Below, piece after piece: positions 394 through 16,192 of a stretch of DNA of 64,000 bases. This DNA comes from Candidatus Methanosuratincola sp. (GTDB lineage: Archaea > Thermoproteota > Methanomethylicia > Methanomethylicales > Methanomethylicaceae). Where the stretch lies: the NCBI GenBank assembly GCA_014361455.1, contig JACIVP010000003.1:62001-126000 (forward strand), in the 5' to 3' direction. Every line of letters starts with the position of its first letter. Within the stretch, counting starts at the first letter, position 1. The position numbers and the translations under genes were made by a program. The notes under the pieces are model-generated. The model did not search any database. It was not told where the DNA came from and saw nothing but the letters and a program-made list of their open reading frames with translations.

Positions 394-774
394 CTATACA
401 AATTCTTTGCAAGAAGAAGGAAATAAGACTTTGCTGACTGTATTTATCAACTCCTCTTGTTTGAATGGTTTTGCCAGAAAAGCAGTTACGCCCATGCGCA
501 TAGCTTCATTCTTTGCCCAAATCTGATCCACCGCAGTCAGCATGATTATCTTCGATGATGGATCTATACTGAGGATCTCTTTTGCGGCATCTATCCCATT
601 TTTATTTGGCATATTTATATCCATTAAGATGACTTGCGGGGAGTGTTCAAGGAACTTGTTGACTGCATCTAACCCATCGGTGGCTTCAATAATCGATTTA
701 AACCCTGCCATAGACAATACTCTACATATAAGCCTCCTCATAAACAAAGAGTCGTCTGCTACAAGTACAGACAA
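394..774 (-). CDS. cheY: Chemotaxis response regulator CheY
   Basis: This is a single-domain receiver of 126 residues, the normal CheY length. Visible landmarks are the acidic pair D7-D8, the phospho-acceptor D52 in ILMDINMP, T80 in the MLTA segment and K102 in AKPF. CheY-P would pass the signal to the archaellum motor, in archaea through an adaptor such as CheF bound to the ArlC/D/E proteins. It lies between cheW (18 bp upstream) and cheC and is probably co-transcribed from the cheW promoter. No output domain is present. Confidence 0.93.
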   Translation of the reverse strand: MSVLVADDSLFMRRLICRVLSMAGFKSIIEATDGLDAVNKFLEHSPQVILMDINMPNKNGIDAAKEILSIDPSSKIIMLTAVDQIWAKNEAMRMGVTAFLAKPFKQEELINTVSKVLFPSSCKEFV

Positions 775-791
775 TTAGACACCCCTAGGTT

Positions 792-1334
792 CTAAATCTC
801 TGCAGATGACGGGGACGAAACAGATGCTGACGGTTTTTCGGATTTTGCAACATTCTTTGTAATTTTAAACGCTGAAGCGCCGTCTTGGCTTACTTGACAG
901 TGTTCTTGAAGAAGTTTAACAACATCGATTAGGATTGTGAGCTGATTTTCGGATCTAATTATTCCAGATATGAAAGAATTCGATGGACTGGTGGTGATTG
1001 ATGGTGATTTGACAATTTCCCCGATTGGTACCGTAACAACGCCAACAACGCAATCTACAATCAGTCCTACGACATCAGAGTCGAACTCGACCATTATTAT
1101 CCTCGAGTTTTCATCAAATTCTCTTTGAACCATCCCGAAGATCTTCCTGAGATCGACTATTGGCGTTATCTGCCCCCTAAGGTTTATGACTCCCTCCACA
1201 TAGCCAGGTGCATTTGGGACCTTTACATAATCCCTGACCTTGATTATTTCCTTGATCTGATGAACATCAATCCCATATATCTCTTTGTCTAGCTGAAAAG
1301 TAATCGCTTGGACTTCGGTCCTAGTAACACCCAA
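792..1334 (-). CDS. cheW: Chemotaxis coupling protein CheW
   Basis: The protein has 180 residues with the CheW SH3-like fold pattern (ITFQLDKEIYGIDVHQIKEI, then YVEGVINLRGQITPIVDLRK). CheW links the MCP tip to CheA at the array. The C-terminal 35 residues are a Ser/Lys-rich tail beyond the usual domain. The start is TTG at 1334, chosen because a GGTGA ribosome-binding site lies about 6 nt upstream and no ATG fits. It is the first gene of the cheW-cheY-cheC unit. Its promoter carries the GGTCGCC-like element at 1391-1397. Confidence 0.92.
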   Translation of the reverse strand: MGVTRTEVQAITFQLDKEIYGIDVHQIKEIIKVRDYVKVPNAPGYVEGVINLRGQITPIVDLRKIFGMVQREFDENSRIIMVEFDSDVVGLIVDCVVGVVTVPIGEIVKSPSITTSPSNSFISGIIRSENQLTILIDVVKLLQEHCQVSQDGASAFKITKNVAKSEKPSASVSSPSSAEI

Positions 1335-1366: not shown

Positions 1367-1397
1367 TATATTTTAAGCTGATGAGTTAAAGGCGACT
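1367..1397 (-). promoter_or_regulatory. cheW promoter with AGTCGCC element
   Basis: On the minus strand AGTCGCCTTT (ending at 1391) is followed after 15 nt by the TATA-like AAAATATAA at 1375-1367, 33 nt before the cheW start. Element, spacing and orientation match those upstream of the other motility genes in this window. Confidence 0.55.
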
Positions 1398-1557
1398 AGC
1401 AGTCGTGGCAGTCTAAATGGTTTCGCATATTTTTAAATAATATAGGACACTTTAGTTGCCATTGATATGCCTTTTTTGATGATCAGATCGAAATACAACT
1501 TTGATGGATAATGAAATGAATAAAGATCGGTAAAGAACCGGTAAAAAGACAATTTAT

Positions 1558-1594
1558 GTCGCCATATGGTCGCCTTTTGATTATTGGTTTATAC
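1558..1594 (+). promoter_or_regulatory. MCP promoter with tandem GTCGCC elements
   Basis: Two copies of GTCGCC occur at 1558-1563 and 1569-1574, 11 bp (one helical turn) apart. The second reads TGGTCGCCTTTT. A TATA-like TTTATAC follows at 1588-1594, 13 nt after the second copy and about 35 nt before the TTG start of the MCP gene. Confidence 0.6.
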
Positions 1595-1628
1595 GATCTG
1601 AACTAAAGCAGTATTTTAGGGGAGAAAG

Positions 1629-2594
1629 TTGATAGGCTTAAGAAAGGCTAAAGACAAAACAATCGAGGTTCAGCATTTGAACAGTTCTGAAGCAAATTTT
1701 GGAGCTGACAAATCACAAGCGATTGGCAAAGATGCACAAGAAAATTTGCTCAAGATCAAGGATCAGGAGATAGCAATCAGCCAGTCGATGCAGCAGATAG
1801 CTCAGTCGGTTCAACAGATCGCGAAAGGGGCACAAACTACATCTGTTGCGATAAACAACATTCTTGCCCAGATACAGAAAGCAGACGGCATAATCCAAGG
1901 AGTGATAAAGTCCAGGGAAGAGGCGAGCGAGGACGCGAGACAAGGAAAAACTCTCGCAGACGAAACGATCGTGAATAGTAAAAAAACAGAGGAAGTTCTT
2001 GCGGAAATAAAGTTGGTGCTTGAAACTTTAGGGCCTTCATTGAACTATCTAGATGAGGCAAGTAAAAAAATCGGAGATGTAATTGATACGATAAAGGACA
2101 TAGCAGATCAGACCTCATTGCTTGCACTCAACGCTGCCATTGAAGCGGCAAGGGCTGGGGAGGCAGGCAGGGGCTTTGCTGTGGTCGCAGGAGAGATACG
2201 CAAGCTTGCAGAGGAAACGCGCAAGTCAGTGGATGCAACTCAACAAATAGTGAAGAAAGTTCAAGAAGCAGCAATGAAAACTCTCGATGGAACTGGCGAA
2301 CTGACCAAGAAATTGAGTTCTGGAACCGAGGTGGTGAGGCAGGGGGCAGAGTCCCTAAAAATGCTTTCGGAGTTCACGATCAATCAATCCGAGGGAATAA
2401 CCAAGAGAGCTGGAGCAGTGCAAGCGGCAATGGATGTAATCAAGTCCTTGCAAGGACCAATAAGCGAGGTCGCGGCGGTGGCAGAAGAAAATGCTTCGGC
2501 CGCAGAGGAGATAACCAGCGCAATACAGGAGGCTAATGCATCGATCGAGGCTAGTGCAACTATGATACAAGACTATCTAAAAAAGCATGAATAG
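1629..2594 (+). CDS. Soluble methyl-accepting chemotaxis protein
   Basis: This 321-residue protein is almost entirely MCP signalling domain. It has the conserved hairpin tip ([20 protein letters not shown], then [14 protein letters not shown] at roughly residues 160-200) that contacts CheA and CheW, flanked by long heptad helices. There is no signal peptide, transmembrane segment or recognisable sensor domain: the first 60 residues are a Gln/Ser-rich helix. It is therefore a cytoplasmic receptor whose input is unknown, perhaps sensed through a partner. The start is TTG at 1629, 4 nt after GGGGAG. It is divergent from cheW and is the only MCP seen in the window. Confidence 0.9.
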
Positions 2595-3070
2595 ACACCG
2601 TTGAACGACTGCAAAACACATTTTATTTCCTCTTTCTCGATCAAACCAGCATTAGACAAAAGAATTAGATAAAGTGTAATCCAAGATTAAAATGAATCTG
2701 ATATTTTACGTTATATCATACCTAAATATGTAAGTCAGGTGCTCATTAGATTTTGTTCTTGTTAAAAGGAATGGTAAAACATGTGAATTTAAAAGAAAGG
2801 TATTTTACCCACCTAAGTTATCGGAACGGTTATTGTTTATAGTCTTTTTCCTTCAAGATCACATAAACCAACAGAATAAGTTACAGTTTTTTGACTGATT
2901 TGACTCTCAAGGTTGCTCAAAGCATTCTCAAGTAAGTTCATTCTCTTCTATTTTTCAAGATTTACCTCGTAAAAGCCATTTGCCCTAGATCCTCAGGATG
3001 GTGGCATTTCATTTTGTAAACCATTGACCTTACTTTTTCTATGCTTTCCGAAACTTCATTTAGCGTGTTT
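2595..3070. other. AT-rich convergent intergenic region, no gene seen
   Basis: These 476 bases separate the converging MCP and cheA genes. They are AT-rich and hold no reading frame with recognisable similarity. I see no RNA gene or clear repeat. Confidence 0.6.
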
Positions 3071-5317
3071 CTATTTGTCTTTGGCAATTGTCATCACATC
3101 TATAACGAATGTTGGTTTTCCGTCGCCGAGTATTGCCGATCCTAGAAAACCCCTCACCTCCCTTAGGATCTTCGGAATAGGCTTCATCGCCACTTCGTCC
3201 TCATCTCGCACCTCCGACACTAGGAGACCGTAGTTCCTGCCGTCTCCCCTCTTTATTATGATCACGACGTAGGCGTTGCAGACGCCTTCGTCAATTCCAA
3301 GTAGCCAGGCAAGTCGATAGAGCCTAATCAAATTTCCCCTTAGATTTATAAAAGGCGCCCCATGAATAAATCGTATTTCCTCTTTCTTTATCTCAACTAT
3401 TTCTAAGATATCAATTACCGGTATTGCATAGAGCTGCCCGCTTGAACCGACCCCAACGATGATAACCTTCAGTGTAGCCATCGAAGCAGGGAGGCGCATT
3501 GTAATCGTTGTACCCTTTCCAACTTCCGATTTTATCGAAAGCGAACCGCCAAAAGACTCTATTTTACTCTTGACTGCACTCATGCCCATACCCCTCCCCG
3601 ATAATTCTGATACTTCTTTCTTCATTGAAAATCCAGGAACGCAGATAAGGCCCAGTGCCTCTTCGTCAGTCATACTCTCTGCCTTTTTAGAAGAAATGAG
3701 ACCCCGAATCACGGCAGTTTCCCGGACTGCCTTCGGATCTATACCTTTTCCATCATCTTCGATATTGAGTATAAAGTGGGAGGCGTCCCTTGAAGCGGAT
3801 ATTTTAATCGTTCCAACCGCAGCCTTACCAATCCTAACCCGCTCTTCTGTGGTCTCTATGCCATGATCGATGCAGTTCCTTACTATATGGACAACGGGAT
3901 CCATTATTTCTTCGAGTATCTTTCGGTCAATGGCAGTATCACCACCTTCGACGATAAGGTCTATTTCTTTACTAAGGCTCTTTGACATGTCCCTCACCAT
4001 CCTTGGGAAGATGCCAAAGACCTGCCCTATAGGCATCAGGCGAAGATTCATTACCTCGTTCTGAAGGTCAGAAACCGTCCCATCAATTAGCCTGTGCACC
4101 TCCTTTAACTCGGGCGACCCTAGCTGTTTGACTATATTGCCAAGCCGAGATTTTGCCAAAACAAGCTCTCCCGCCAGATTGAAGAGCCGATCTAGACTGC
4201 TTATGTTGACCCTGATCTCCTCAACCCTGTGCTTACCCTTGGTCGAGTCGGCCCTTATGGTTGCTGATGATTCTTCCTTACCTTGTGTCTCAAAACACGA
4301 AACGAGCTGGTCTATCTGCACTATCTTCTCTGCAAGCAAGGATTTCTCAGAAGGGACGCCCCCGTCTAGGCTGATGGGCTCGCATTTCAATTCCTTTACA
4401 CCAGGTATCCCTTTGAGAGATTCAATAAGAGACTGGATATCGTTCGTCGAGACCTCAGCTTTCACCGCATTCTCAAATTCCCCGTTTGCTAGTTGTTCGT
4501 TAGGGGGATCAGTCTGTAGGAGAACCCCATTTTCAACCAGTGTCTTTAGGATCATGAACGCCCTGACAGGGCGCAAAGGTTTTTCAATTTCGGTCAGAAT
4601 CGTTATTCTGAAGTGCCCCGCACCAGCTTTGGACTGCCCAGAATCTGAAAAAATGCCATCAAGTTCTGCAATTTTGTCGCTTGACTCGGCTGCGCTATCG
4701 GACCCGGTTCCAGTCCGGCTTTGCCCTGATTTTTCACCAAGATCGCTCCAACCCTCTGACTTGATGGGGGCGGTTTTGAGCTCAAATTCCGCTTTTTTCT
4801 CATCTTCAATTACCCTGCTCATGCTTGCATGTATCTTGCCTATTGCCTCTTCCAAGTCCTTTATCTTGGCAGTAGAAATCTTAGGTGCAAAACCATCAGA
4901 ATTGCTTTTAAGAGCCTCAGCTATCTCATGGGATTCCGGCTTAGAACTCTCAGACAGAGGACTAGAAGAAGATGGATTAGTAGAACCCGGGGTTGTAGCA
5001 GCAAAATCGTCTACCAATATGCTTATTTTATCCACATACCCTAGCAGTAAATCAATTGTGCTTGTTGAGACTGTTCTTTTTCTCTCCTTCAGATCTGCGA
5101 GTATGTCTTCGGCCTCGTGCGCCAGATCGGCTATCTTTTCTAGCCCCATCATTGCCGAATCCCCCTTTATAGTATGCATCTCTCTGAAGGCTTCGTTAAT
5201 CGCTTCACTGTCTTCTTTGTTTTTCTCGAGGTGCAAGAATATCGCGTTTAGCCTTGCTATGTGCTCCTTAACCTCCCCCAAGTAAAGCTCACGGTAGTAA
5301 CGATCTTCGTTGCTCAA
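3071..5317 (-). CDS. cheA: Chemotaxis histidine kinase CheA
   Basis: The protein has 748 residues in the standard CheA order. An N-terminal HPt domain carries the phosphorylated His48 in MHTIKGDSAMM. A CheY-binding P2-like domain lies near residues 230-320 (HFRITILTEIEKPLRPVRAF). Then come the dimerisation helices (around 370-430), the HATPase domain with N box VRNCIDHGIE and glycine boxes DDGKGID and GRGMGMSAVK, and a C-terminal CheW-like domain. It autophosphorylates under MCP control and donates phosphate to CheY and CheB. The 100-230 segment is a long low-complexity Ser/Glu linker. It lies downstream of the minD-like gene on the same strand but has its own upstream GGTCGCT element. Confidence 0.96.
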   Translation of the reverse strand: MSNEDRYYRELYLGEVKEHIARLNAIFLHLEKNKEDSEAINEAFREMHTIKGDSAMMGLEKIADLAHEAEDILADLKERKRTVSTSTIDLLLGYVDKISILVDDFAATTPGSTNPSSSSPLSESSKPESHEIAEALKSNSDGFAPKISTAKIKDLEEAIGKIHASMSRVIEDEKKAEFELKTAPIKSEGWSDLGEKSGQSRTGTGSDSAAESSDKIAELDGIFSDSGQSKAGAGHFRITILTEIEKPLRPVRAFMILKTLVENGVLLQTDPPNEQLANGEFENAVKAEVSTNDIQSLIESLKGIPGVKELKCEPISLDGGVPSEKSLLAEKIVQIDQLVSCFETQGKEESSATIRADSTKGKHRVEEIRVNISSLDRLFNLAGELVLAKSRLGNIVKQLGSPELKEVHRLIDGTVSDLQNEVMNLRLMPIGQVFGIFPRMVRDMSKSLSKEIDLIVEGGDTAIDRKILEEIMDPVVHIVRNCIDHGIETTEERVRIGKAAVGTIKISASRDASHFILNIEDDGKGIDPKAVRETAVIRGLISSKKAESMTDEEALGLICVPGFSMKKEVSELSGRGMGMSAVKSKIESFGGSLSIKSEVGKGTTITMRLPASMATLKVIIVGVGSSGQLYAIPVIDILEIVEIKKEEIRFIHGAPFINLRGNLIRLYRLAWLLGIDEGVCNAYVVIIIKRGDGRNYGLLVSEVRDEDEVAMKPIPKILREVRGFLGSAILGDGKPTFVIDVMTIAKDK

Positions 5318-5349
5318 GCAAAAACCATCCCCTTAACAAAAGAGGTACA

Positions 5350-5370
5350 TTGAACTTTATTGAAGCGACC
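5350..5370 (-). promoter_or_regulatory. Candidate cheA upstream element (GGTCGCT)
   Basis: On the minus strand GGTCGCT lies at 5370-5364, about 47 nt before the cheA start. The following sequence has only a weak TATA-like stretch (CAATAAAGTT) directly adjacent, so this is the poorest member of the shared-element set. Confidence 0.3.
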
Positions 5371-5420
5371 CGCCGTCATAACGGTTGTTGACTTTATGAA
5401 CCCGATCCCCCCTTTCCAAG

Positions 5421-6230
5421 TCATTTTGCCCCAGTCAGATCTATTGTTTGACTCTCAGTTGCGGTCAGCTCTATAAGTCGCTTGGCAATTTTCAATAATT
5501 GCGATGAATACGGATGCTGTGGATGATGCAGGCAGAAGACACCCCTAGACCTGTGCGAAAGTATTTCCTCGTAGAATGGAAGAATGCCTATAACCGACGC
5601 GTCGATGATCTTTGACACCTCCGAGGGCAGATCGGGGGATTCTGCGAGGTTAGGAGGGACCATGTTTAGTACGACGTAGCTGATCCTGCCGAACTTCTTC
5701 ATTATCTGACCGGTGATGTATGTCCCTGTCACATCCTGCTTGTCCATCCTCATTAGAAGGAGGCTCACATCACTTGACATTACAGCAAGAAGTGTATCTT
5801 CATTTAGACCTGGATGAGTGTCAAATATGACGTAGTCAACATTATATTCTTGACTGAGTTTCTCGGCTACGTGACGGAAGAACTTGTCGCTATACCCTTC
5901 CCGTATTACCTTCACTATCTCTTCAGGTTTCATGCTTGAACCAAGGAAGTATACGGCGCCTCGAGGCAACTTCAAGTGATTAGTTATGTCAAGAACTATG
6001 TCTTGGAAAGAACATCTGTTATAGATGTAATCATTCAATGTAAAGTTCATCATCTGGGAGGAGACGTTGTAAATTACGTGAAGACCAGGAGAGGTTATGT
6101 CCATGTCTATTGTTGCTACTCTCTTTCCCAGCGCCGCCAGAAGCACCGACAAATTTGAAGTAGTGGTGCTTTTCCCAGTTCCACCCCTGTAAGAATGCAC
6201 TACACACGTCGTAGTCATCTTTACCACCAT
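5421..6230 (-). CDS. MinD/ParA-family ATPase linked to chemotaxis genes
   Basis: This 269-residue P-loop ATPase has the deviant Walker A motif RGGTGKST (residues 15-22), the switch I segment TIDMDITSPG and a Walker B-like region VDYVIFDTHPG. It belongs to the MinD/ParA/FleN class, which forms ATP-dependent dimers that position cell structures at membranes or poles. Haloferax volcanii MinD4 is known to place chemosensory arrays and archaella at poles. The location between cheA and the MCP/archaellum genes suggests the same job here, by inference. I see no clear C-terminal amphipathic membrane-targeting helix. Its ATG overlaps the stop of the upstream coiled-coil gene (TGATG), indicating coupled translation. 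Confidence 0.85.
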   Translation of the reverse strand: MVVKMTTTCVVHSYRGGTGKSTTTSNLSVLLAALGKRVATIDMDITSPGLHVIYNVSSQMMNFTLNDYIYNRCSFQDIVLDITNHLKLPRGAVYFLGSSMKPEEIVKVIREGYSDKFFRHVAEKLSQEYNVDYVIFDTHPGLNEDTLLAVMSSDVSLLLMRMDKQDVTGTYITGQIMKKFGRISYVVLNMVPPNLAESPDLPSEVSKIIDASVIGILPFYEEILSHRSRGVFCLHHPQHPYSSQLLKIAKRLIELTATESQTIDLTGAK

Positions 6231-6448
6231 CAGTGTGAAGAGATTCGCTTTTCAAGTTTTGAAACTCTACTCTCCAGATTGTCAAGCCTGCTTGTTATAT
6301 CCTCAAGCTTGTCCTCGAATCTAGAGATCACATCCTCTACTTTGCCGGTATCGGTCTGCATCTCGGACATCATAGTCCTTAACTTCATCCTGAGCGCCGA
6401 TTCGTCCTCCTTATCCTTCAGATCCTTGCCTAAAGACGTTTGTCCCAC
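6230..6448 (-). CDS. Small coiled-coil protein coupled to the MinD-like ATPase
   Basis: The predicted protein has 72 residues. From about residue 25 it forms a continuous heptad coiled coil (VISRFEDKLEDITSRLDNLE, then SRVSKLEKRI). The gene is supported by the one-base stop/start overlap (TGATG) with the MinD-like gene and by a promoter with the shared element at the right distance. The start is GTG at 6448, close to the expected transcript start. No family is recognised. It is a plausible partner or regulator of the ATPase, like coiled-coil partners of other ParA proteins, but this is inference. Confidence 0.7.
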   Translation of the reverse strand: MGQTSLGKDLKDKEDESALRMKLRTMMSEMQTDTGKVEDVISRFEDKLEDITSRLDNLESRVSKLEKRISSH

Positions 6449-6478
6449 CCCGTACGATAGATAGAGGCACTATCCAAA

Positions 6479-6505
6479 CTATAAGCAGATTCGCATTAGG
6501 CGACC
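6479..6505 (-). promoter_or_regulatory. Promoter of the coiled-coil/minD unit with GGTCGCC element
   Basis: On the minus strand GGTCGCC lies at 6505-6499, followed after 14 nt by TTATAG at 6484-6479. The GTG start at 6448 is 30 nt beyond, implying a very short leader. It sits back to back with the promoter at 6540-6569. Confidence 0.6.
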
Positions 6506-6539
6506 GACTCTCACCAATCCAAAAACACAGGATGCAGTT

Positions 6540-6569
6540 GGTCGCCAAAATTTAATATCCATATAAAAT
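6540..6569 (+). promoter_or_regulatory. Promoter of the small gene at 6603 with GGTCGCC element
   Basis: TTGGTCGCC ends at 6546 and ATATAAAAT begins at 6561, a gap of 14 nt. The TATA-like box overlaps the first possible ATG at 6570, so translation more likely starts at the ATG at 6603. Confidence 0.6.
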
Positions 6570-6602
6570 ATGCATATAATAAGCTCAGGCAAGTGCGTTG
6601 AG

Positions 6603-6920
6603 ATGACATTTCTTGATCTGCTCGTTGATGGAGAGATAGTGATGGAAGCTATGCTAGTAGACAACTCTGACGGCGAGGAGATAATGTACAAAGGACCTAA
6701 CCTAGAGAAAAGGATAAAGGATGTCTCATTTATGATAATGGACAACCTTCCAGCGCTGAGATACATCGTGCTTGCAGTTTCCAAGAAGAAGTATGTCATG
6801 ATTGCGATAAGCGACTCGAAGTATCTTATTCTTGGAATCAATCCGAAGGTGAACTCTGAACAATTCATCCATCAGATTACAAAGTCACTTAAAGAACTTG
6901 GCCTTGAATGGCAGGATTAA
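6603..6920 (+). CDS. Small conserved-looking protein, possibly Roadblock/LC7-like
   Basis: The protein has 105 residues from the ATG at 6603. An upstream ATG at 6570 falls within the TATA region and is unlikely. Alternating strands (MEAMLVDNSDGEEIMYKG, then IVLAVSKKKYVMIAISDSKY) and a C-terminal helix resemble small Roadblock/LC7-type or profilin-like domains that act with GTPases or motility proteins. This is a fold-level guess only. It is divergent from the coiled-coil/minD unit and shares the GGTCGCC promoter element, so a motility role is likely. Confidence 0.6.
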   Translation: MTFLDLLVDGEIVMEAMLVDNSDGEEIMYKGPNLEKRIKDVSFMIMDNLPALRYIVLAVSKKKYVMIAISDSKYLILGINPKVNSEQFIHQITKSLKELGLEWQD

Positions 6921-6978
6921 ACAGATTACAGGTAAACTGTAGAAATTACGGTCCTATTTGTATGGAAAAGCGATCATC

Positions 6979-7004
6979 GGTCGCTTTTTTGCAAATTTTT
7001 ATAA
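6979..7004 (+). promoter_or_regulatory. Promoter of the ArnR-like pair with GGTCGCT element
   Basis: CGGTCGCTTTTTT starts at 6978 and is followed about 12 nt after the core by TTTATAA (6998-7004), 26 nt before the ATG at 7030. If the regulators bind this element themselves, the pair would be autoregulated. Confidence 0.5.
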
Positions 7005-7029
7005 GAGTTAAAAATAGGAATTCTGTACT

Positions 7030-7938
7030 ATGGTAGAAACCCTTCTGTCGCACGGAGACACGAACACTCTAGAGCAGCTTAGAAAGGTTGACGGATTGAT
7101 CGATATCTCGAAGAGCACACTACAGTTGGATATAATACTAGCCCTGAATGCAAACAATGAGCTCTCTCCGGCTGAAATAGCATCGGTGATAGGACAGAGA
7201 AGAAAAGCAGTCACAGATGCCCTCAGGAAGCTGAGAAACAAAGGACTGGTAGACACGACATTAGAAGGAGGTAAGTCGGCGAGGTATGTGCTGACTGATT
7301 CTGGAGCAGAATGCATATCGGTTATAAACCGGTGCATAGGCAACAATGGGCATGGAAAAGCAAATAACATAATTATTAATCAGGTTAAAAAAATCCCCAG
7401 CGTGAATGCCACTTCAATACAATTCGCGTCTGCGCTGTCTCAGCTGCTCTTTGCACTCGGAACCGCCAAGGGGAATGCGCTTCCGCTGAGTGAGATAGCT
7501 AGCATAATGGGCCTGAGCGAGCAGCGAACCGAGAGCTATTTGGAGTTATTCATGAAGAGCGAGCCAAGGCTCTTCAGAAGGTACACGGATGACCCCTCAT
7601 GGGTGAAGCACCTCAGGAAGCTCGGATTGAAGTTAAGGACCAAAAAACGGGAGACATTTTATGGGCTGACCCAGGAAGGGCTGCAGTACTTTTACAAACT
7701 GCCATCTTACAACCGGATCAGGCGATCCAAGTCATACAAGATGTTGAGCACGCTGACTAGGTCGAACAGCCCGAGGGAAATAGTGAAGAAACTCGGGTTT
7801 GCCGTGCTACTGGTCAGCGTGTTTTCATTTGTAACAACGTTCATGGTTTTGGATTTGCAATGGATGCTGATTATAGACATTTTGATGGTTGCAATAGGCA
7901 TACTGCTATCGCTAGATATATTCAAAGACAATATCTGA
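7030..7938 (+). CDS. Membrane-anchored double winged-helix regulator, ArnR-like (copy 1)
   Basis: The protein has 302 residues. A first winged helix covers about residues 22-90 (LSPAEIASVIGQRRKAVTDA). A short linker follows, then a second helix-turn-helix region at about 132-255 (LPLSEIASIMGLSEQRTESY). The end carries two hydrophobic segments (FAVLLVSVFSFVTTFMVL and MLIIDILMVAIGILLSL). DNA-binding domains with two C-terminal membrane helices, present as paired paralogues beside archaellum genes, are the hallmark of Sulfolobus ArnR and ArnR1, which activate the archellin promoter. Homology versus analogy cannot be settled here. Segments 7092-7299 and 7424-7794 are identical in DNA to parts of the next gene. 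Confidence 0.8.
   Translation: MVETLLSHGDTNTLEQLRKVDGLIDISKSTLQLDIILALNANNELSPAEIASVIGQRRKAVTDALRKLRNKGLVDTTLEGGKSARYVLTDSGAECISVINRCIGNNGHGKANNIIINQVKKIPSVNATSIQFASALSQLLFALGTAKGNALPLSEIASIMGLSEQRTESYLELFMKSEPRLFRRYTDDPSWVKHLRKLGLKLRTKKRETFYGLTQEGLQYFYKLPSYNRIRRSKSYKMLSTLTRSNSPREIVKKLGFAVLLVSVFSFVTTFMVLDLQWMLIIDILMVAIGILLSLDIFKDNI
7092..7299 (+). repeat. Direct repeat A, copy 1 (208 nt, identical to 8006-8213)
   Basis: Every base matches the second copy, offset by 914. It encodes the first winged-helix domain of regulator copy 1. Sequence on both sides is unrelated between the two genes. Confidence 0.95.
7424..7794 (+). repeat. Direct repeat B, copy 1 (371 nt, identical to 8464-8834)
   Basis: The segment is identical to the second copy, offset by 1040. 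It encodes the second helix-turn-helix region. Identity stops exactly at the codon before the membrane segments. Confidence 0.95.
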
Positions 7939-7952
7939 AGGAGAGCTCGGGC

Positions 7953-8990
7953 TTGGCGGATGCACTTCCCCTCAGCAATAGGCTCGCCAGGATCAGGAAC
8001 TTAAGCGGATTGATCGATATCTCGAAGAGCACACTACAGTTGGATATAATACTAGCCCTGAATGCAAACAATGAGCTCTCTCCGGCTGAAATAGCATCGG
8101 TGATAGGACAGAGAAGAAAAGCAGTCACAGATGCCCTCAGGAAGCTGAGAAACAAAGGACTGGTAGACACGACATTAGAAGGAGGTAAGTCGGCGAGGTA
8201 TGTGCTGACTGATCTCGGGATAGAGTTAGTCAAGACCCTGTTGAGCATCCTAGAGGTTTCTCCTTCGGATGAGCCGGGCAGGATAGGCGAAACGGGGGCT
8301 GTCGGGATCGGACAAGCTTTTTCTGGGTCAGAGCCAGCAGGCTTGAAAGAATCTTCAGATGGAAGGAGCCAAAGCATCCTTCATGGTAGATCCTTTCAGG
8401 AGGCGGGGCGGACTAATGGACCTCAGAATTTTACGAGGAGAATTGAGCCGGGCTCGTTCGCGCTCGCGTCTGCGCTGTCTCAGCTGCTCTTTGCACTCGG
8501 AACCGCCAAGGGGAATGCGCTTCCGCTGAGTGAGATAGCTAGCATAATGGGCCTGAGCGAGCAGCGAACCGAGAGCTATTTGGAGTTATTCATGAAGAGC
8601 GAGCCAAGGCTCTTCAGAAGGTACACGGATGACCCCTCATGGGTGAAGCACCTCAGGAAGCTCGGATTGAAGTTAAGGACCAAAAAACGGGAGACATTTT
8701 ATGGGCTGACCCAGGAAGGGCTGCAGTACTTTTACAAACTGCCATCTTACAACCGGATCAGGCGATCCAAGTCATACAAGATGTTGAGCACGCTGACTAG
8801 GTCGAACAGCCCGAGGGAAATAGTGAAGAAACTCTTATTAATTCTACTGATAAGTGAATTATTTTCACTGATAGGGATGGTAGTCCCCTTGGATCTAAGG
8901 ATCACTTCATTCTGGCTTGCTTTTACGATCCTCCTAGGGTCTGTCGCGCTGGCATCAGCCTTAATATACCGGATTGCAAACCACCTCTGA
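7953..8990 (+). CDS. Membrane-anchored double winged-helix regulator, ArnR-like (copy 2)
   Basis: The protein has 345 residues from TTG at 7953, chosen because GGAG at 7940-7943 is 9 nt upstream and directly follows the stop of copy 1. A longer open frame from 7860 would overlap copy 1. The two DNA-binding regions are identical to copy 1. The linker is longer (about 83 residues, Gly/Ser/Pro-rich). The two C-terminal membrane segments (LLLILLISELFSLIGMVVPL and FWLAFTILLGSVALASALIY) are different. The two proteins should therefore read the same DNA site but differ in membrane-proximal signalling. It is followed after 13 bp by cheB. Confidence 0.8.
   Translation: MADALPLSNRLARIRNLSGLIDISKSTLQLDIILALNANNELSPAEIASVIGQRRKAVTDALRKLRNKGLVDTTLEGGKSARYVLTDLGIELVKTLLSILEVSPSDEPGRIGETGAVGIGQAFSGSEPAGLKESSDGRSQSILHGRSFQEAGRTNGPQNFTRRIEPGSFALASALSQLLFALGTAKGNALPLSEIASIMGLSEQRTESYLELFMKSEPRLFRRYTDDPSWVKHLRKLGLKLRTKKRETFYGLTQEGLQYFYKLPSYNRIRRSKSYKMLSTLTRSNSPREIVKKLLLILLISELFSLIGMVVPLDLRITSFWLAFTILLGSVALASALIYRIANHL
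8006..8213 (+). repeat. Direct repeat A, copy 2
   Basis: Identical to 7092-7299. It encodes the first winged helix of regulator copy 2. Confidence 0.95.
8464..8834 (+). repeat. Direct repeat B, copy 2
   Basis: Identical to 7424-7794. It encodes the second helix-turn-helix region of regulator copy 2. Confidence 0.95.
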
Positions 8991-9003
8991 ACTGGTGAGG
9001 TTT

Positions 9004-10029
9004 ATGAAGAAAGTTTTGGTTGCAGACGACTCCTCCCTGATGCGCCGCCTCGTCAGCGACACACTAAGGGGAGAAGGTTTCGAAGTGCTAACTGCCTCAA
9101 ACGGGAAGGAGGCGATCGAGTTGGCAGCCAAAAACAAACCGGATGCTGCCGTCCTAGACGTTAGGATGCCAGTCATGGACGGCCTGGCTGCCCTGAAGGA
9201 ATTCGTTTCCACTGGAATTCCCACAGTCATGTTTAGCTCTCTTACCAAGGAAGACTCCCAAGTCACAATGGATGCTTTAGAGGTTGGCGCCTTCGATTTC
9301 GTCCCGAAGCCAGGAGGCACAGTCACTCTAGACATCTCAGAGGTTAGAGATGATCTGATCAGAAAAGTCAGGGCAGCTGTGATAAGCAAAAAAATTCCGA
9401 TCTTACGACCAAAGACAGGCAAGTCTGGGAGAGTTGAGGGGGTCCATGCCCCCGCATCTTCTGTACTACTCATTGCAGCATCTACGGGGGGGCCGTCATT
9501 CGTAAAGGCGTTAGTTCAGTCACTGGGCAGTGATCTTGAAGCTGCAGTCTTGATAGTTCAGCATATGCCTCCGGTCTTCACAAAATTCTTTGCTGAGAGG
9601 ATAGCATCAGGTTCGCGTATCCCGGTTAAAGAGGGGGAGGAGGGCGACGAAGTCCGCGCAGGTTTGGCGTTTCTGGCCCCTGGCGATTATCATATGGAAG
9701 TTACTTCCGACCCCGTAGCAAGGTTGTCTCTGAACAAAGGACCTAAAGTCAACTACGTCCGACCTTCCGCTGATCCTCTATTTATTTCGGCAGCAAGAAG
9801 GTTCGGCAGGAGGGTGGTGGCAGTGATTCTTTCTGGGATGGGATCGGATGCGAAGGACGGGGCGCTGGCGGTCAAGTCCTTTGGCGGGCACGTGATAGCC
9901 CAAGATGAGACAACGAGTGTAGTTTATGGCATGCCAAGAGCTGTTATCGAGGCTGGCGCGACAGACGAAGTATTGCCATTCGATGAGATACCGAAGAGGG
10001 TGAACGAAATATTAAGTCGCCTGGCATAG
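9004..10029 (+). CDS. cheB: Receptor methylesterase/deamidase CheB
   Basis: The protein has 341 residues from the ATG at 9004, which has a GGTGAGG site just upstream. An N-terminal receiver domain (VADDSSLMRR, phospho-Asp in VLDVRMP) is joined to the methylesterase domain. That domain has the catalytic Ser in AASTGGP (about residue 160), the His in QHMP (about 188) and the Asp in GMGSDAKDG (about 282). CheB-P removes methyl groups from MCP glutamates during adaptation. The matching methyltransferase CheR and deamidase CheD are not in this window. It lies 13 bp after the second ArnR-like regulator, so it is probably in that operon. Confidence 0.95.
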   Translation: MKKVLVADDSSLMRRLVSDTLRGEGFEVLTASNGKEAIELAAKNKPDAAVLDVRMPVMDGLAALKEFVSTGIPTVMFSSLTKEDSQVTMDALEVGAFDFVPKPGGTVTLDISEVRDDLIRKVRAAVISKKIPILRPKTGKSGRVEGVHAPASSVLLIAASTGGPSFVKALVQSLGSDLEAAVLIVQHMPPVFTKFFAERIASGSRIPVKEGEEGDEVRAGLAFLAPGDYHMEVTSDPVARLSLNKGPKVNYVRPSADPLFISAARRFGRRVVAVILSGMGSDAKDGALAVKSFGGHVIAQDETTSVVYGMPRAVIEAGATDEVLPFDEIPKRVNEILSRLA

Positions 10030-10228
10030 AGCAAATAAATATCAGCAAATACCAAATGGTTATATCCAAACAAGTTTTGTTCTATTACCAAATAAAACAG
10101 AAGATATTAGTTAATGTGTTTATTCCGCACCAGTACTTAAGTGGATTTCTGGATAAAACTTTGGGAAAGTAAGTCTGATCTCGCAATTCCCAGAGGGATA
10201 AGTGGCGTTCGGAGATACGGTGATGTAT

Positions 10229-10306
10229 GGTCGCCTTACAAGGCTGCAAAGTCGCCGCTGCGACGACGACCATCGCCGATGCATCTTAATATTATATACG
10301 GTCGCA
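10229..10306 (+). promoter_or_regulatory. arlB promoter region with several GTCGCC elements
   Basis: GGTCGCC occurs at 10229-10235, GTCGCC at 10251-10256 (21-22 bp later, two helical turns) and GGTCGCA at 10300-10306. The TATA-like TTATATAC lies at 10292-10299. The arlB ATG follows 34 nt after the box. Multiple copies fit a strongly controlled promoter for the filament protein. Confidence 0.55.
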
Positions 10307-10333
10307 GTAAAAGCTTGCGTCAGGTGATTGAAA

Positions 10334-10999
10334 ATGAGGAGGATGAATCGAAAGGGCATGACCGGGATTGAGACAGCAATCATTCTCATTGCTTTCGTGA
10401 TCGCTGCTTCGGTCTTTGCGTTCGCTGTGCTCAATATGGGACTATTGACAACCGCTAAGGCGCAGGATGCCATTATATCGGGCGTTGGACAGGCCCAGTC
10501 CTCGCTGAAAATAACAAGTGTATACGCCTACTCTGATAGTGCCGGATCTGAGGCAAATACCAAAGGTGTTGCCATGCTGGTTCAGCCTTCAGGAACTGCC
10601 AACGTTGACTTCACAGCATCAAAGATAGCCATCTCGTACAAGAATGAGCACGTGGCGTATCCTGATGTATACGAGGCCGAAACAGCTTCTGATGTTTTCA
10701 TAAACAAGACGGATTTCGCCGGATCTTACGATGGCAACTTGGTTAATCTTTTGAATGCATCTGGTATGGAAAACCAAACATGTGTAGTAATAGAGATCCA
10801 AGGCGACGGAGATATGCTCCTTGAGCAGGGCGAGCTCTTTGCAGTATACCTCCACTTAGAGAACATTGATTCGAATGCAACACTCGGCGTGTACGACCAA
10901 TTCACAACAGAAATAATCCCAGGCCAGGGTTCAAAACTGACCTTCACTGGAACGATGCCCGCAAGCATACTCGAAGTGATGTTGCTCTCTGGATCCTAA
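10334..10999 (+). CDS. arlB: Archellin (archaellum filament protein)
   Basis: The protein has 221 residues from the ATG at 10334; a TTG at 10328 or the ATG at 10343 are also possible. It has a class III signal peptide: a short basic leader ending RKG, then MTGIETAIILIAFVIAASVF. Prepilin peptidase PibD/FlaK is expected to cut after that Gly. The hydrophobic helix forms the filament core, and the rest is a beta-rich outer domain with several N-linked glycosylation sequons (NKT, NAS, NQT, NAT). It is the only archellin gene here, in contrast to multi-archellin loci of many Euryarchaeota. Confidence 0.93.
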   Translation: MRRMNRKGMTGIETAIILIAFVIAASVFAFAVLNMGLLTTAKAQDAIISGVGQAQSSLKITSVYAYSDSAGSEANTKGVAMLVQPSGTANVDFTASKIAISYKNEHVAYPDVYEAETASDVFINKTDFAGSYDGNLVNLLNASGMENQTCVVIEIQGDGDMLLEQGELFAVYLHLENIDSNATLGVYDQFTTEIIPGQGSKLTFTGTMPASILEVMLLSGS

Positions 11000-11115
11000 G
11001 CCACCATCTTTTTATACTCCATCTCCTAATCCTCTTTTTTTAAACATGAAAAATGAATTTTTGAATTTCATAATATGGATTTTCCACATAAATCAGGGTG
11101 GTTTCAGCGTTGGCT

Positions 11116-11142
11116 GGTCGCCTTAAATAACGCTATTTAAAG
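11116..11142 (+). promoter_or_regulatory. Promoter of the arlCDE-like gene with GGTCGCC element
   Basis: CTGGTCGCCTT (core 11116-11122) is followed after 11 nt by TATTTAAAG at 11134-11142. This gives the rest of the archaellum operon a promoter of its own, separate from arlB. Confidence 0.55.
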
Positions 11143-11200
11143 TATGGATTGAACACAAGATACGAGCGACAACTTCGCTGTATCGAAGAGGGTGCAGAAG

Positions 11201-12208
11201 ATGTCGCTGCTCAAGGAAGAGGACGAAGACCTAGGGATGAAGATCATCCAGCTCGAAGAGAAGACTAACAAGCTGGAGGGTGCAGTAGCCGAGATTTCCA
11301 AAGAGGCGCGCGCGATCCTCAATGATGTCAGAGTGGTCCTGACGGACTTGGAGAACCCAATGAATTACCTCAAAAGCCTCGGGATTGATGAGGTCATGCT
11401 AGCCATGGCCGAGAATATCACAGAAAACAAGCTAAAGGAGTTCATGGAGAAGCGCCTCGAAACGCTCGTGAGGACGGTCGTCGAGGGTAAGCTGAAAGAA
11501 ACGGTGAACGCCATAATTGCAGAGTTTATGGAAAAAGAGGCGGGGGGGATAATAGAAGGAAAGATACGAGATATGAAGGAGAAAGGGATTCTAAATGTTC
11601 CGATAAATGTTGACGAATTGAAGAAAGCCCTTGACGAGAAATTAAGCGAAGCCATAAACATGGACGAATTGAAGGGCACTCTAAAGAAAGAGCTGGAGGA
11701 CTCGATCCAGAAAGATTTAGGTCAGAGCATAGGTAAAGACAAAAGTGCCCTGGAATCGTTGAAAGGGGCGCTTAAGCAAGAAATTCTCACAGAACTTTCG
11801 CAAACTCGGTTCCCGCAAGAGGGTACTGAGATGGCGCATGCTGAAAGAATTTCAAACCAGAATCGACAGCGCCAGCCAGTATCCATAGTTGGAATTACTG
11901 CATGCGCCGCATCCCTCGTGAGGATCTTTGGTAGGAGGGGGGCGGAGCGTGTAGTCGATGACAACTACCGCCTAGGCAGGATAAATGAGGACACAAGGTC
12001 ATCCCTGATAAGGGCGATAAGCATAATGAGTGCAGGGGAGGTTCTAGATATGTCCTACGAGAAGGAGTGCAATATGGAGGATCATGTACTTGTCACGTAT
12101 CTCTTCGATAGGCTAGGAAACGGTGGTGGAGACGTTGACTTTCTCGTGGTCGCGAATCTTCTTGGTAGCTCGTCGATCGTGAAGGGCAAATCCGATCTGA
12201 AAGATTAG
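11201..12208 (+). CDS. ArlC/D/E-like archaellum switch protein
   Basis: The protein has 335 residues from the ATG at 11201 (GAGGGTG about 8 nt upstream; a GTG at 11192 is possible). It begins with a coiled coil (residues 10-50), continues as a long charged helical region with repeat-like EELKEKL-type segments, and ends in a compact domain. That domain (SLVRIFGRRGAERVVDDNYR, then LGRINEDTRSSLI) resembles the ArlD/E domain that sits around the motor and receives the CheF/CheY signal in Euryarchaeota. Crenarchaeota lack these proteins. Position between arlB and arlG supports the call. The match is weak (no Trp in the usual GWIS motif), so ArlC/D/E-like is as far as I go. Confidence 0.6.
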   Translation: MSLLKEEDEDLGMKIIQLEEKTNKLEGAVAEISKEARAILNDVRVVLTDLENPMNYLKSLGIDEVMLAMAENITENKLKEFMEKRLETLVRTVVEGKLKETVNAIIAEFMEKEAGGIIEGKIRDMKEKGILNVPINVDELKKALDEKLSEAINMDELKGTLKKELEDSIQKDLGQSIGKDKSALESLKGALKQEILTELSQTRFPQEGTEMAHAERISNQNRQRQPVSIVGITACAASLVRIFGRRGAERVVDDNYRLGRINEDTRSSLIRAISIMSAGEVLDMSYEKECNMEDHVLVTYLFDRLGNGGGDVDFLVVANLLGSSSIVKGKSDLKD

Positions 12209-13340: not shown

Positions 13341-13544
13341 GTGGTAAACGACGATTCGTATTTTGATCCGATATCAGATGGGCTAAAGTTTTTGCCGAAA
13401 GAAAATTTCAGCGACAATGTCTATAATTTAGACTGCGGAGCGTTTAGTAGCAGGTATGCCATGGAATGGGATGCACATCACTTTATGTATGCAAACGAGG
13501 TTATTATCAGTTTATTTAATCCAGGAGGCGCACTGCAATGGTAG
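13341..13544 (+). CDS. Small acidic protein between arlF and arlH
   Basis: The predicted protein has 67 residues from GTG at 13341, which has GGAGG 8 nt upstream, inside the end of arlF. It is acidic and aromatic (DDSYFDPISDGLKFLP, then YAMEWDAHHFMYANEV). Its stop overlaps the ATG of arlH by 7 bases, so translation is probably coupled. No family is recognised and there is no signal peptide or membrane segment. The tight packing is the main argument that it is real. It could be a cytoplasmic accessory of ArlH. Confidence 0.6.
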   Translation: MVNDDSYFDPISDGLKFLPKENFSDNVYNLDCGAFSSRYAMEWDAHHFMYANEVIISLFNPGGALQW

Positions 13545-14263
13545 TCCAGCCACAGAAACAGGGACAACTGATCAGGATGGGCACAGGAGAACTTGACCGC
13601 CTGATAGGCGGAATTCCAATGCCCTCAATGAACCTGTTAGAGGGAGAAAATGACACTGGAAAGAGTGTATTCGCCCAAGACGTGACCTGGGGAGCACTTA
13701 CTTCGGGGTTCACCGTGAGGTACATCACCACAGAGATGACGGCACAATCACTAGTGTCCCAGATGGAAAGCCTCTCCTTTAATGCCACCCCCTATTTCAT
13801 CGAAGGCAGATTCAAAATAACAGCTTTTCACGCAAAGGGGATCAACTGGGATGAGAACATCGCCTCAAACTATCTATCTGTAATGTTCAATTTCATTAAG
13901 AAGAAGGGGGATGCAAATGTCATCGTATTCGACTCGCTCACGTACATAGCGACCCACTCCTCAGAGAAGGATCTATTAAACTTCCTCTCGGAGCTTAGGA
14001 ACTACGTCGACCAGAGGACTAGGGGGGTCTTCGTCACCATACACCCTTTTGCGTTCGACTCGAATCTGCTGATTAGGATCAGGTCAATATGCGATGGGCA
14101 TATAGTATTCAAGGTGAAAACACTGCCAAGCAATGAAACCGCAAGGACTCTCGAGATACTGAAATTGAGGGGAGCGGCAAAGGCAACCAATAACCTTTGC
14201 ACATTCAAAGTTGAGCCGGGGATTGGACTCAGAGTGTTGCCTTTCACACAAGTTAAGGCCTAG
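13538..14263 (+). CDS. arlH: Archaellum ATPase regulator ArlH
   Basis: The protein has 241 residues of the RecA/KaiC-like fold. The Walker A motif GENDTGKS lies at about residues 37-44 and the Walker B region VIVFDSLT at about 129-136. ArlH binds ATP and docks onto ArlI. Its nucleotide state is thought to switch the motor between assembly and rotation. It follows the canonical order arlH-arlI-arlJ. Its ATG overlaps the end of the small upstream gene. Confidence 0.93.
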   Translation: MVVQPQKQGQLIRMGTGELDRLIGGIPMPSMNLLEGENDTGKSVFAQDVTWGALTSGFTVRYITTEMTAQSLVSQMESLSFNATPYFIEGRFKITAFHAKGINWDENIASNYLSVMFNFIKKKGDANVIVFDSLTYIATHSSEKDLLNFLSELRNYVDQRTRGVFVTIHPFAFDSNLLIRIRSICDGHIVFKVKTLPSNETARTLEILKLRGAAKATNNLCTFKVEPGIGLRVLPFTQVKA

Positions 14264-14347
14264 GATCGCGTACAAACCGATTCATGGCGGCAATGACGTG
14301 GCTGATCGAAAGAGGCTGAAGGGCTGATAGAAAGAGGGCGACAGAAA

Positions 14348-16111
14348 GTGGCCAGTACATCTGCGCAAGGAAGCACATCTAGACCTGACTCAGGAATGAA
14401 CTGCAATTTGGTATACGAGTTGGGTGCAGAGTTCGGCGAGTATGCTGTAAAGGCGCCTCACCTCCACGAGTATGCACATAAAGCACGAAGCAACTCGGAA
14501 TTTGAGGGAATCCCGCTTCAGTTTAAAAAGAGCCTTTCCCAGGACCTCCGTCTCTTGAAGAAGTTCAATCTTATCTATCCTGTTTCCGACAACATATTCA
14601 TACATGTTTTCAAGGGGGCCAGGGATGCGTACGGCAGGTATTGTCCCATAGAGTCGAGGCTCCCGCCGGATAAGAAAAACCTAATCGGAAAGGCAGAGGA
14701 GCTGATCGCCTCAATTATAAATGAAGAAATCGCCCAAAAGATCGTCGAGAAACGTGAAAAGATATTAATCGAACTCTTCGAGGCGGTTGTCAAGATAGAA
14801 GGGAGCTCGACCTCGCCTTCGAAAAACAAGACCAGGATCGCTCCCTTGTTTCTTCCGAAGGAAACCTATGAACAGCTGAAATATGAGATCCTCACGGATA
14901 AGATAGGAATGGGACCGCTAGAGCCCATGATAAAAGATGTATATATAGAGGATATCTCTTGTGATGGCATAGGTCCAGTATTCTTGGAGCATAAGATATT
15001 TGGGTCGATGACCACCACAATAGAGTTTAAGAACGAAAGCGAGCTCGATTCCTTCATTGTAAAGATGTGTGAGAGGATCGGGCGACCAGTTAGCCCGAGG
15101 AGGCCGATTGTGGACGCTTCCCTCTTGGACGGGTCAAGACTGAATGTCGTTTTTGGGAACGATGTTAGTAGAAGAGGAAGCAACTTCACTATCAGAAAAT
15201 TCACAAAGATCCCACTCAGCATAACACAGCTAGTGAAGTTCGGTACACTAGATGCAAGGATGGCAGCGTATATTTGGATGATGCTCGAGTCAGGCATGTC
15301 CATCTTTATTTGTGGTGAAACGGCATCTGGGAAGACAACCACATTGAACGCAATCACAGTTTTCATCAGACCTGACGCAAAAGTCATTACGATTGAAGAA
15401 ACTCCAGAAGTATATATTCCTCACCCGAATTGGGTTAGCGAATGCAGTAGGAGTGGGGAGTCCGAAGCCTCATCGATAGAGCTTTTCGACCTGCTGAAGT
15501 CGGCACTAAGGCAGAGACCGAATTACATCATTGTTGGAGAGATCCGGAGTAAAGAAGGCAATGTGGCATTCCAAGCAATCCAGACCGGTCATCCGGTCAT
15601 CTCCACATTTCATGCAGCTTCAATGCAAAAACTGATCCAGAGGATCACTGGAGATCCCATAAATATTCCAGCGGCATATATTGATAACCTAAATGTGGTA
15701 CTTTTCCAGAGCAGCGTAAAGAGCCCTAAGACAGGGAAGTTTGAAAGGAGGGTAACGAGCATATGTGAGATAATAGGCATAGATCCAGTCGAGAAATCTT
15801 ACAACTTCATAGAGATATTTTCTTGGGATCCGATCACTGATGCGCACACTTTCAGGGGGGTCGGAAACAGCTATCTTCTGGAGTACAAGGTAGCACCCAT
15901 GAAGGGGCTGGCGCCTAAGGACGCCAGGAAAATATACAATGAGCTGGAGCTCAGAACATATATAATTAAGAAGCTCATCGAACTGAACATATTCAACTAC
16001 TATGACGTTTACAATGCCCTCTCCAAGATACACGAGAATCCGTATCTGGCGGACATGACTTTTGACAACTATACAACAAAGGCAATAGACAAGATCTTGA
16101 AAAGTGATTGA
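14348..16111 (+). CDS. arlI: Archaellum motor ATPase ArlI
   Basis: The protein has 587 residues of the type II/IV secretion ATPase family. The Walker A motif GETASGKTT lies near residues 322-331, a catalytic Glu follows in VITIEETPE, and a Walker B/His box is seen in NYIIVGEIRSKEG and TGHPVISTFHAAS. It forms the hexamer driving both archellin assembly and filament rotation with ArlJ. The start is GTG at 14348. It leaves an 84-bp gap after arlH without a gene. Confidence 0.95.
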   Translation: MASTSAQGSTSRPDSGMNCNLVYELGAEFGEYAVKAPHLHEYAHKARSNSEFEGIPLQFKKSLSQDLRLLKKFNLIYPVSDNIFIHVFKGARDAYGRYCPIESRLPPDKKNLIGKAEELIASIINEEIAQKIVEKREKILIELFEAVVKIEGSSTSPSKNKTRIAPLFLPKETYEQLKYEILTDKIGMGPLEPMIKDVYIEDISCDGIGPVFLEHKIFGSMTTTIEFKNESELDSFIVKMCERIGRPVSPRRPIVDASLLDGSRLNVVFGNDVSRRGSNFTIRKFTKIPLSITQLVKFGTLDARMAAYIWMMLESGMSIFICGETASGKTTTLNAITVFIRPDAKVITIEETPEVYIPHPNWVSECSRSGESEASSIELFDLLKSALRQRPNYIIVGEIRSKEGNVAFQAIQTGHPVISTFHAASMQKLIQRITGDPINIPAAYIDNLNVVLFQSSVKSPKTGKFERRVTSICEIIGIDPVEKSYNFIEIFSWDPITDAHTFRGVGNSYLLEYKVAPMKGLAPKDARKIYNELELRTYIIKKLIELNIFNYYDVYNALSKIHENPYLADMTFDNYTTKAIDKILKSD

Positions 16112-16192
16112 AATGAGGATTTCGGATCTTGAGCCTAACAAAGTAACGGATAGAGGCTGGAATTGTCGAGGATGTACAAAGAGTGGATCTAA

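Follow-up and report, generated by a model that had tools for sequence, protein, structure and literature searches.

The closest described counterpart of the system analyzed here is ArnR of Sulfolobus. In the sections of the literature that bear on it, the ArnR box is given as TCGAC-N5-GTCGA, with two boxes per arlB promoter that are both required for binding and a loss of flaB (arlB) promoter activity upon box deletion (PMC6396743), and ArnR and ArnR1 of Sulfolobus acidocaldarius are described as having near-identical helix-turn-helix (HTH) domains and different sensing domains (PMC4307647). A second described regulator is EarA of Methanococcus and Pyrococcus, a euryarchaeal winged-helix activator of the archaellum that uses short repeated sites (TACATA) near the transcription factor B (TFB) recognition element (BRE) and is said to lack homology to ArnR (PMC13286277, PMC6396743). 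The relevant part of a 2016 census placed arnR-like genes in archaellum loci of Sulfolobales and Desulfurococcales only and described chemotaxis genes as restricted to euryarchaea (PMC4858521). Here, we analyze 64,000 nucleotides (the window) from Candidatus Methanosuratincola sp. of the Methanomethylicaceae (assembly GCA_014361455.1, contig JACIVP010000003.1, positions 62,001 to 126,000), in whose first 20 kb, a motility and chemotaxis block, the heptamer GGTCGCC recurs in promoters. The genome (1.52 Mb) contains an mcrA match and is therefore assigned to a methanogen-type lineage. Judged from sequence, it is very likely that a membrane-anchored pair of ArnR-type activators switches on the archaellum, chemotaxis, MinD, and its own genes through an ArnR-type operator that contains this element.

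The first-pass annotation of the window had proposed that GGTCGCC, or a one-base variant, marks a motility regulon, and all copies of this type that it listed were recovered. The window holds 13 copies of GGTCGCC against 4.9 expected, a number reached in none of 100 shuffles. Five of the 13 sit in motility promoters, and the remaining eight all lie inside open reading frames (ORFs) of at least 80 amino acids, as had been said of copies elsewhere, while the proposed chance rate of about one copy per 8 kb has to be lowered to about one per 13 kb. An antisense ORF (6479-6868, minus strand) contains the copies at 6499 and 6540; we take it as spurious because it overlaps a conserved small gene. Genome-wide, RGTCGCC is not enriched (457 occurrences vs 485 for the reversed control). 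Therefore, the signal lies in the position of the element and not in its number.

Motility loci were collected from nine relatives, and the upstream regions of orthologous genes (at most 200 bp) were compared with no motif assumed. Gene starts in the relatives are approximate, homology-based ones, and five mcp starts were shifted upstream because the N-terminus is not conserved. The 6-mer analysis covered 58 promoters (8 from the window and 50 from relatives) and omitted cheB (six rows) and six of the 15 arnR rows, namely second copies and divergent ArnR-like genes in loci L030, L033, L036, and L038. GTCGCC is the top-scoring 6-mer in the relatives' motility promoters (25 of 50 vs 1.1 expected). 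With the window counted, it is found in seven of seven cheW promoters and five of seven promoters of chemoreceptor (MCP) genes, and GTCGCC/T is found in all eight promoters of the arlCDE-like gene (one GTCGCT), in all six of the coiled-coil/minD operon (two GTCGCT), and, as an upstream copy, in all seven of arlB (two GTCGCT). Further sites precede the arlCDE-like gene of G005 and the coiled-coil/minD genes of G017, both outside the training set described below. In addition, all seven arlB promoters carry a proximal [ACT]TCGCC exactly +20 from a TATA-like sequence. The upstream copies lie 21, 31, 32, 42, or 43 bp before this half-site, near whole helical turns (R = 0.97), and, assuming distances of 15-50 bp to be equally likely, such phasing has a chance probability of 0.003 for four independent cases and 5e-6 for eight. 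The small-gene box was found in just two of eight genomes examined, the own genome and G001; GTCGCC occurs in none of six cheB promoters, and no [N]TCGC[CT] occurs in the ~360 bp examined at the second MCP gene (own genome, C68:57774) or at a G004 MCP gene resembling it. The element is kept at orthologous promoters of relatives, where its absence had been named as an argument against the proposal.

GGTCGCC proves to be one arm, the right one, of an imperfect inverted repeat, nnYGAY-N5-GTCGCC. With a spacer of 5, the left flank agrees with GGCGAC at 3.17 of 6 positions, whereas the 13 alternatives from 0 to 13 give 0.87-1.85, and the dyad score at spacer 5 is reached in none of 20,000 random draws; the result also holds when each combination of promoter type and genus contributes a single site (20 groups). 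The distance to the TATA box is also constrained. Rather than the gap of 11-15 bp first described, we found that the TATA box begins a near-fixed 20 bp downstream of the first base of GTCGCC, which leaves 14 bp after the hexamer. Among 44 sites, TATA-like hexamers occur in 29 at +19, 20 at +20, and 16 at +21, and in at most 8 at any other offset between +8 and +33. From left arm through TATA, 24 sites align without a gap.

A sequence-only model of box plus TATA was trained on 24 relatives' sites, with the own genome kept out of training. Five promoter types supplied these sites (cheW, mcp, coiled-coil, arnR, and arlCDE-like), each promoter through its gene-proximal GTCGC[CT]. For arnR, only G001 and G004 contributed; the mcp promoters of G013 and G017 were not used, nor were any sites at arlB, cheA, or the small gene. 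In the own-genome scan, in which 150 of 180 first-look candidates were scored, the model returned five matches at E ≤ 1, which are the coiled-coil/minD, arlCDE-like, cheW, MCP, and ArnR-like promoters. Such a matrix search had been proposed in the first-pass annotation, with equal frequency at the TATA boxes of unrelated genes as the outcome that would refute its claim; no match at E ≤ 1 was obtained beyond the motility block in this genome, and the regulon emerges more strongly than originally stated.

In 22 genomes of the family, the model gives 48 matches at E ≤ 1: 24 training sites, 5 in the own genome, and 19 others. Fifteen of these 19 were examined (the remaining four are in G012, G013, twice, and G017), and nine adjoin motility, chemoreceptor, or ArnR-linked genes: the G005 arlCDE-like gene, the G017 minD operon, G020 arlB, two MCP types in each of G011 and G015 (four sites), a G011 histidine kinase beside a second ArnR-like gene (E = 0.43), and a G009 response regulator beside an ArnR-like gene (E = 0.054). 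At E ≤ 0.02, four non-training matches in relatives remain, three of them motility-linked (G005 arlCDE-like, and one MCP type in G015 and G011). No match at E ≤ 1 was obtained in eight family genomes (G002, G003, G007, G008, G010, G014, G016, and G018), and G012, G019, and G021 have one weak match each (E = 0.12-0.19). Across 300 genomes of the phylum, scanned with stricter filters, 13 have a match at E ≤ 0.02, with about 6 chance matches expected, and 11 of the 13 belong to the family and possess either ArnR-like genes or an orthologous archaellum. Simpler patterns served less well. The rigid GTCGCC-N14-TTWAWA was too strict, with one of its two own-genome matches in the block (14 matches vs 6 for the reversed control on both strands of the 22 genomes), and a first trial pattern with N10 to TTWWA had the wrong spacing and one match outside the block.

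The best candidate to bind this operator is a pair of tandem genes within the block, ArnR-like a (7030..7938, plus) and b (7953..8990, plus). Both match NCBIfam ArnR NF041016 (E = 2.2e-23 over residues 13-285, and 3e-18). The predicted architecture of ArnR-like a comprises an N-terminal winged helix (Pfam MarR_2, residues 31-77), a second winged helix, and two C-terminal hydrophobic helices recognized as hydropathy peaks; b was identified by Pfam/NCBIfam matches and by its identity to a at the DNA level. A low-confidence structure model (mean predicted local distance difference test score 62, predicted template modelling score 0.33) places the C-terminal helices at residues 248-271 and 276-298 and suggests that the second winged helix lies between the MarR-like one and these helices. 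The model resembles the tandem winged helices of ScpB, MarR, and ArsR in fold, which is no more than suggestive. The recognition helix is among the best-conserved parts (RRKAVTDALRKL here, SRKAVLDAIRKL in G187), and ArnR-like genes adjoin archaellum genes here and in several relatives (in G009, without arlH). We class the pair as ArnR-like and not as ArnR.

ArnR-like genes and the box also occur together. In the 22 family genomes, with box matches taken at E ≤ 0.02, ten have both, one has the box alone, and eleven have neither (agreement 21 of 22; Fisher P = 3.4e-5); the exception, G005, is 73% complete and has a box without an ArnR-like gene. Three genomes (G012, G016, and G019) with a divergent archaellum have no ArnR-like match and no box match at this threshold. 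The arlH of this divergent archaellum has 31-32% identity. Homology, an ArnR-box geometry, a conserved recognition helix, and co-occurrence thus support the earlier suggestion that the ArnR-like pair would be the binder.

The two paralogues have in common one stretch of 371 bp (100% identity) and another of 215 bp (99%), which together span both domains; they differ in the linker and membrane part. Near-identical paralogue blocks are also present in G001 and G004 (99-100%) and in G020 (93%). This pattern indicates repeated gene conversion or, possibly, a recombinational switch. Given the near identity of their DNA-binding segments, both proteins are expected to read the same box.

Within the window, the boxes were scored with the relatives-trained model run with its filters off. 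The best site (24.0 bits) is GGTGAG-agtcg-GTCGCC (6499..6515, minus; TATA TTATAG beginning at 6484) before genes for a short coiled-coil protein (6230..6448, minus), with sub-cut-off Pfam matches of coiled-coil types only, and a MinD-like ATPase (5421..6230, minus; Pfam and NCBIfam searches). Further downstream, cheA (3071..5317, minus) is probably part of the same operon, judged by gene order in relatives, where cheA comes after minD with a gap of 14 to about 130 bp. The arlCDE-like gene (11192..12208, plus), named in the first-pass annotation and without a Pfam or NCBIfam match, follows AGCGTT-ggctg-GTCGCC (11106..11122, plus; 22.8 bits; TATA TTAAAG at 11137). Before cheW (792..1334, minus; PF01584) stands CACGAC-tgcta-GTCGCC (1391..1407, minus; 17.0 bits; TATA TTAAAATA beginning at 1376), and before the MCP gene (1629..2594, plus; PF00015) stand two GTCGCC 11 bp apart (1558 and 1569; box 1558..1574, plus; 16.6 bits; TATA TTATAC at 1589). 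The ArnR-like pair follows AGCGAT-catcg-GTCGCT (6969..6985, plus; 15.7 bits; TATA at about 6997-7004), which, from its position, we propose to read as auto-control. A small conserved gene without a Pfam or NCBIfam family (6603..6920, plus), divergent from the coiled-coil gene, has a box of 10.8 bits (6530..6546, plus; TATA ATATAAAATA at 6561); its start is more likely 6603 than 6570, as two relatives open with MTFLD/MSFLD.

The promoter of archaellin gene arlB (10328..10999, plus; PF01917) is more elaborate. The first-pass annotation correctly placed the copy at 10229-10235, which belongs to a distal box GGTGAT-gtatg-GTCGCC (10219..10235, plus; 8.1 bits), and the GTCGCC at 10251, a middle half-site (10240..10256, plus) 21 bp beyond the distal one; it missed the proximal ATCGCC at 10272 (10261..10277, plus), 20 bp after which the TATA sequence TTATATAC begins (10292). 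The three copies (10230, 10251, and 10272) are spaced exactly 21 bp apart, and only the one at 10272 has the canonical TATA spacing. The GGTCGCA at 10300, also listed there, lies downstream of the TATA start and was dropped from the set of upstream boxes. The cheA site put forward as a weaker member, GGTCGCT at 5364..5370 (minus), was rejected: it scores 4.2 bits, has no TATA at +20, is not conserved, and is probably a chance occurrence.

From these observations, we infer the following mechanism. An ArnR-like dimer, held at the membrane by its two C-terminal helices, would bind nnYGAY-N5-GTCGCC through its N-terminal winged helices. The right half-site, which starts 20 bp and ends 14 bp before TATA, would adjoin the TFB-binding element, so that the dimer could help to recruit TATA-binding protein (TBP) and TFB. 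One membrane signal would then activate the archaellin gene, the arlCDE-like gene, cheW, the MCP gene, and cheA (via the coiled-coil/minD operon), together with the ArnR-like pair itself and probably the small gene. At arlB, the in-phase half-sites (21, 31-32, and 42-43 bp) may let at least two dimers occupy one face of the helix. The virtually identical DNA-binding segments of the paralogues, combined with linkers and membrane parts that differ, would route two inputs to the same boxes.

MarR- and ArsR-type winged helices are often repressors, and the fold matches of the ArnR-like model include both. The box might instead be a repressor operator, at which ArnR-like dimers beside the TFB site would prevent transcription until released by a membrane signal. 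The arlB promoters of the window and of G006 each have a further GTCGC copy 9 bp after the TATA start (10300-10306 in the window), possibly a second regulatory site, whose location would suit repression. Against this, the box lies upstream of the TFB site, as do the Sulfolobus ArnR boxes, deletion of which abolishes flaB (arlB) promoter activity (PMC6396743). We therefore regard repression as unlikely. Marginally less likely still is that the element is bound by another motility-linked regulator, for instance a response regulator that receives its signal from chemotaxis or from a histidine kinase, with the ArnR-like pair as just one of its targets. The box does precede the ArnR-like gene and, in relatives, the G009 response regulator and the G011 histidine kinase; the ArnR-like pair is a candidate binder, and no search for other co-occurring regulators was made. 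However, core and geometry equal those of the published ArnR box, the recognition helix is conserved, the box has no match at E ≤ 0.02 where the divergent archaellum occurs without ArnR-like genes, and G009 has matches and ArnR-like genes with no arlH match. Finally, that the repeated heptamer is a chance or compositional effect, or a core promoter of all genes, can be set aside almost entirely: RGTCGCC is unenriched genome-wide, but the 6-mer ranks first at orthologous promoters, arm and TATA spacing are exact, and the own genome has no match at E ≤ 1 outside its motility block.

Several points weigh against activation by the ArnR-like pair. The pair scores 83 and 66 bits against the ArnR family, far under the 400-bit equivalog cut-off. 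The cut-off itself looks narrow, since three f27 genomes (G116, G182, and G266) with ArnR-box-like arlB sites also fall below it; we take f27 as Sulfolobaceae because three of its genomes pass the cut-off and, among 14 controls, only S. acidocaldarius does. The left arm is degenerate and is missing at the window's MCP gene, where the usual left arm is not present, at the small gene, where it is not clear, and at cheW of G013 and G017; among the seven family arlB promoters, the left arm of the proximal site is unclear in four, and in the other three (genus g1) a 4-bp spacer gives the better fit. The ArnR-like gene's own box is less conserved: G001 and G004 have similar sites, some other genomes have copies in reverse orientation, and G013 and G017 have no clear one. 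Because eight of the ten ArnR-bearing genomes supplied training sites, the co-occurrence is partly circular, and P is 0.033 once these genomes are left out. Six of the 19 non-training matches have no motility link, with about 22 chance matches allowed at E ≤ 1, and a G009 site (E = 0.0019) before an inositol-1-phosphate synthase gene is unexplained. S. acidocaldarius ArnR also binds promoters without a box, and we found no binding or expression data for this organism in the open-licence literature. As to the G009 site (G009:C24:116366-116400; L110:5367-5401), its genome has ArnR-like genes and no arlH match, and the gene on its other flank looks MinD-like by its start.

A broader reading, to which we give somewhat less than even weight, is that motility in Thermoproteota is under an ancestral master switch formed by ArnR and its box and corresponding to EarA of Euryarchaeota. 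In chemotactic lineages, this switch would command the whole swimming-and-sensing regulon. The half-site would have changed with residue 57 (Arg57 with GTCGCC, Ser/Asn57 with GTCGAA), and gene conversion would keep the DNA-binding parts of duplicates identical, which would allow the same operators to receive several membrane signals. We compared arlB promoters of 5 f27 genomes and 10 others; 5 of 20 loci, including that of G098, had no recognized arlB and were not used. The five f27 promoters have YGAY-N5-GTCGAA with TTTAAA at +19 to +21, the same geometry within 1-2 bp. In the ten other ArnR-bearing Thermoproteota, GTCGCC is again the top 6-mer (5 of 10 vs 0.46 expected), but of four checked only G085 has the canonical TATA spacing; this mixed picture counts against the ArnR-type reading of the box. 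Promoters of f11 (G241 and G202), with TCGCC repeats, were rejected as the canonical geometry was not seen. Family members have Arg at residue 57 (window 7198-7200), which precedes the conserved RK of the recognition helix, whereas f27 genomes with GTCGAA boxes have Ser or Asn there. This candidate specificity residue may explain GTCGCC versus GTCGAA, with lineage as a confounder and with exceptions: Pro57 with GTCGCC (G216), Thr57 (G241 and G202), Ser57 (G236), and Arg57 without GTCGCC (G177 and G251).

The rest of the block contains cheY (397..774, minus; CheY_Halo, 6.7e-30, below the cut-off of that model); cheB (9004..10029, plus), 3' of the ArnR-like pair and with no GTCGCC in the 170 bp upstream; an arlF/G-like gene (12309-12788) upstream of arlH; a further gene between the two (12818-13336); and arlH, arlI, and arlJ (13538..17800, plus), identified by KaiC-like, T2SSE, and T2SSF family matches. 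Elsewhere in the window, a lone intergenic GTCGCC (28686-28691) stands 34 bp before an Mrp/Nuo antiporter-like gene, and the model does not recognize it. The own genome has two mcrA-type matches, G000:C1:253381 (222 bits) and the much weaker C112:33308 (75.9 bits), the latter either a divergent second McrA or contamination.

Motility switching is poorly understood in archaea beyond a few models. By sequence evidence, an ArnR-type system in a methanogen lineage of Thermoproteota here most likely controls both archaellum and chemotaxis, and we found no earlier report in the open-licence literature of Methanomethylicaceae-type archaea with an ArnR-type regulon that includes chemotaxis and uses a changed half-site. 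The box model predicts regulon members in relatives, among them extra chemoreceptors and a kinase; the half-site difference from Sulfolobus represents a directly testable specificity switch; and, with its gene-converted regulators, the system is a case in which two membrane inputs would meet at a single operator.

Like EarA, the ArnR-like pair consists of winged-helix proteins, predicted activators with short sites near BRE. Unlike the pair, EarA has no membrane anchor described in the sections cited above, and TACATA is absent from the 15 highest-scoring 6-mers of the motility promoters, although no search for EarA itself was made. The resemblance to Sulfolobus is closer. As in S. acidocaldarius ArnR and ArnR1, which are one-component regulators bound to the membrane, an N-terminal HTH is combined with two (here predicted) C-terminal membrane helices beside archaellum genes, and the paralogues have nearly identical HTH domains and different sensing parts, although here they also share the second domain. 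Like the ArnR box, the operator is an inverted repeat with a 5-bp spacer and a YGAC-N5-GTCG core upstream of BRE/TATA, with a left arm that is degenerate here, and arlB has more than one right half-site, as in the f27 genome G110, where right halves are also 21 bp apart. Unlike in Sulfolobus, the half-site is GTCGCC/GTCGCT and not GTCGA, the left arm varies, so that the published consensus is not matched, most promoters have a single box, and the host belongs to a methanogen lineage, in which the predicted regulon takes in chemotaxis, MinD, and the regulator's own promoter.

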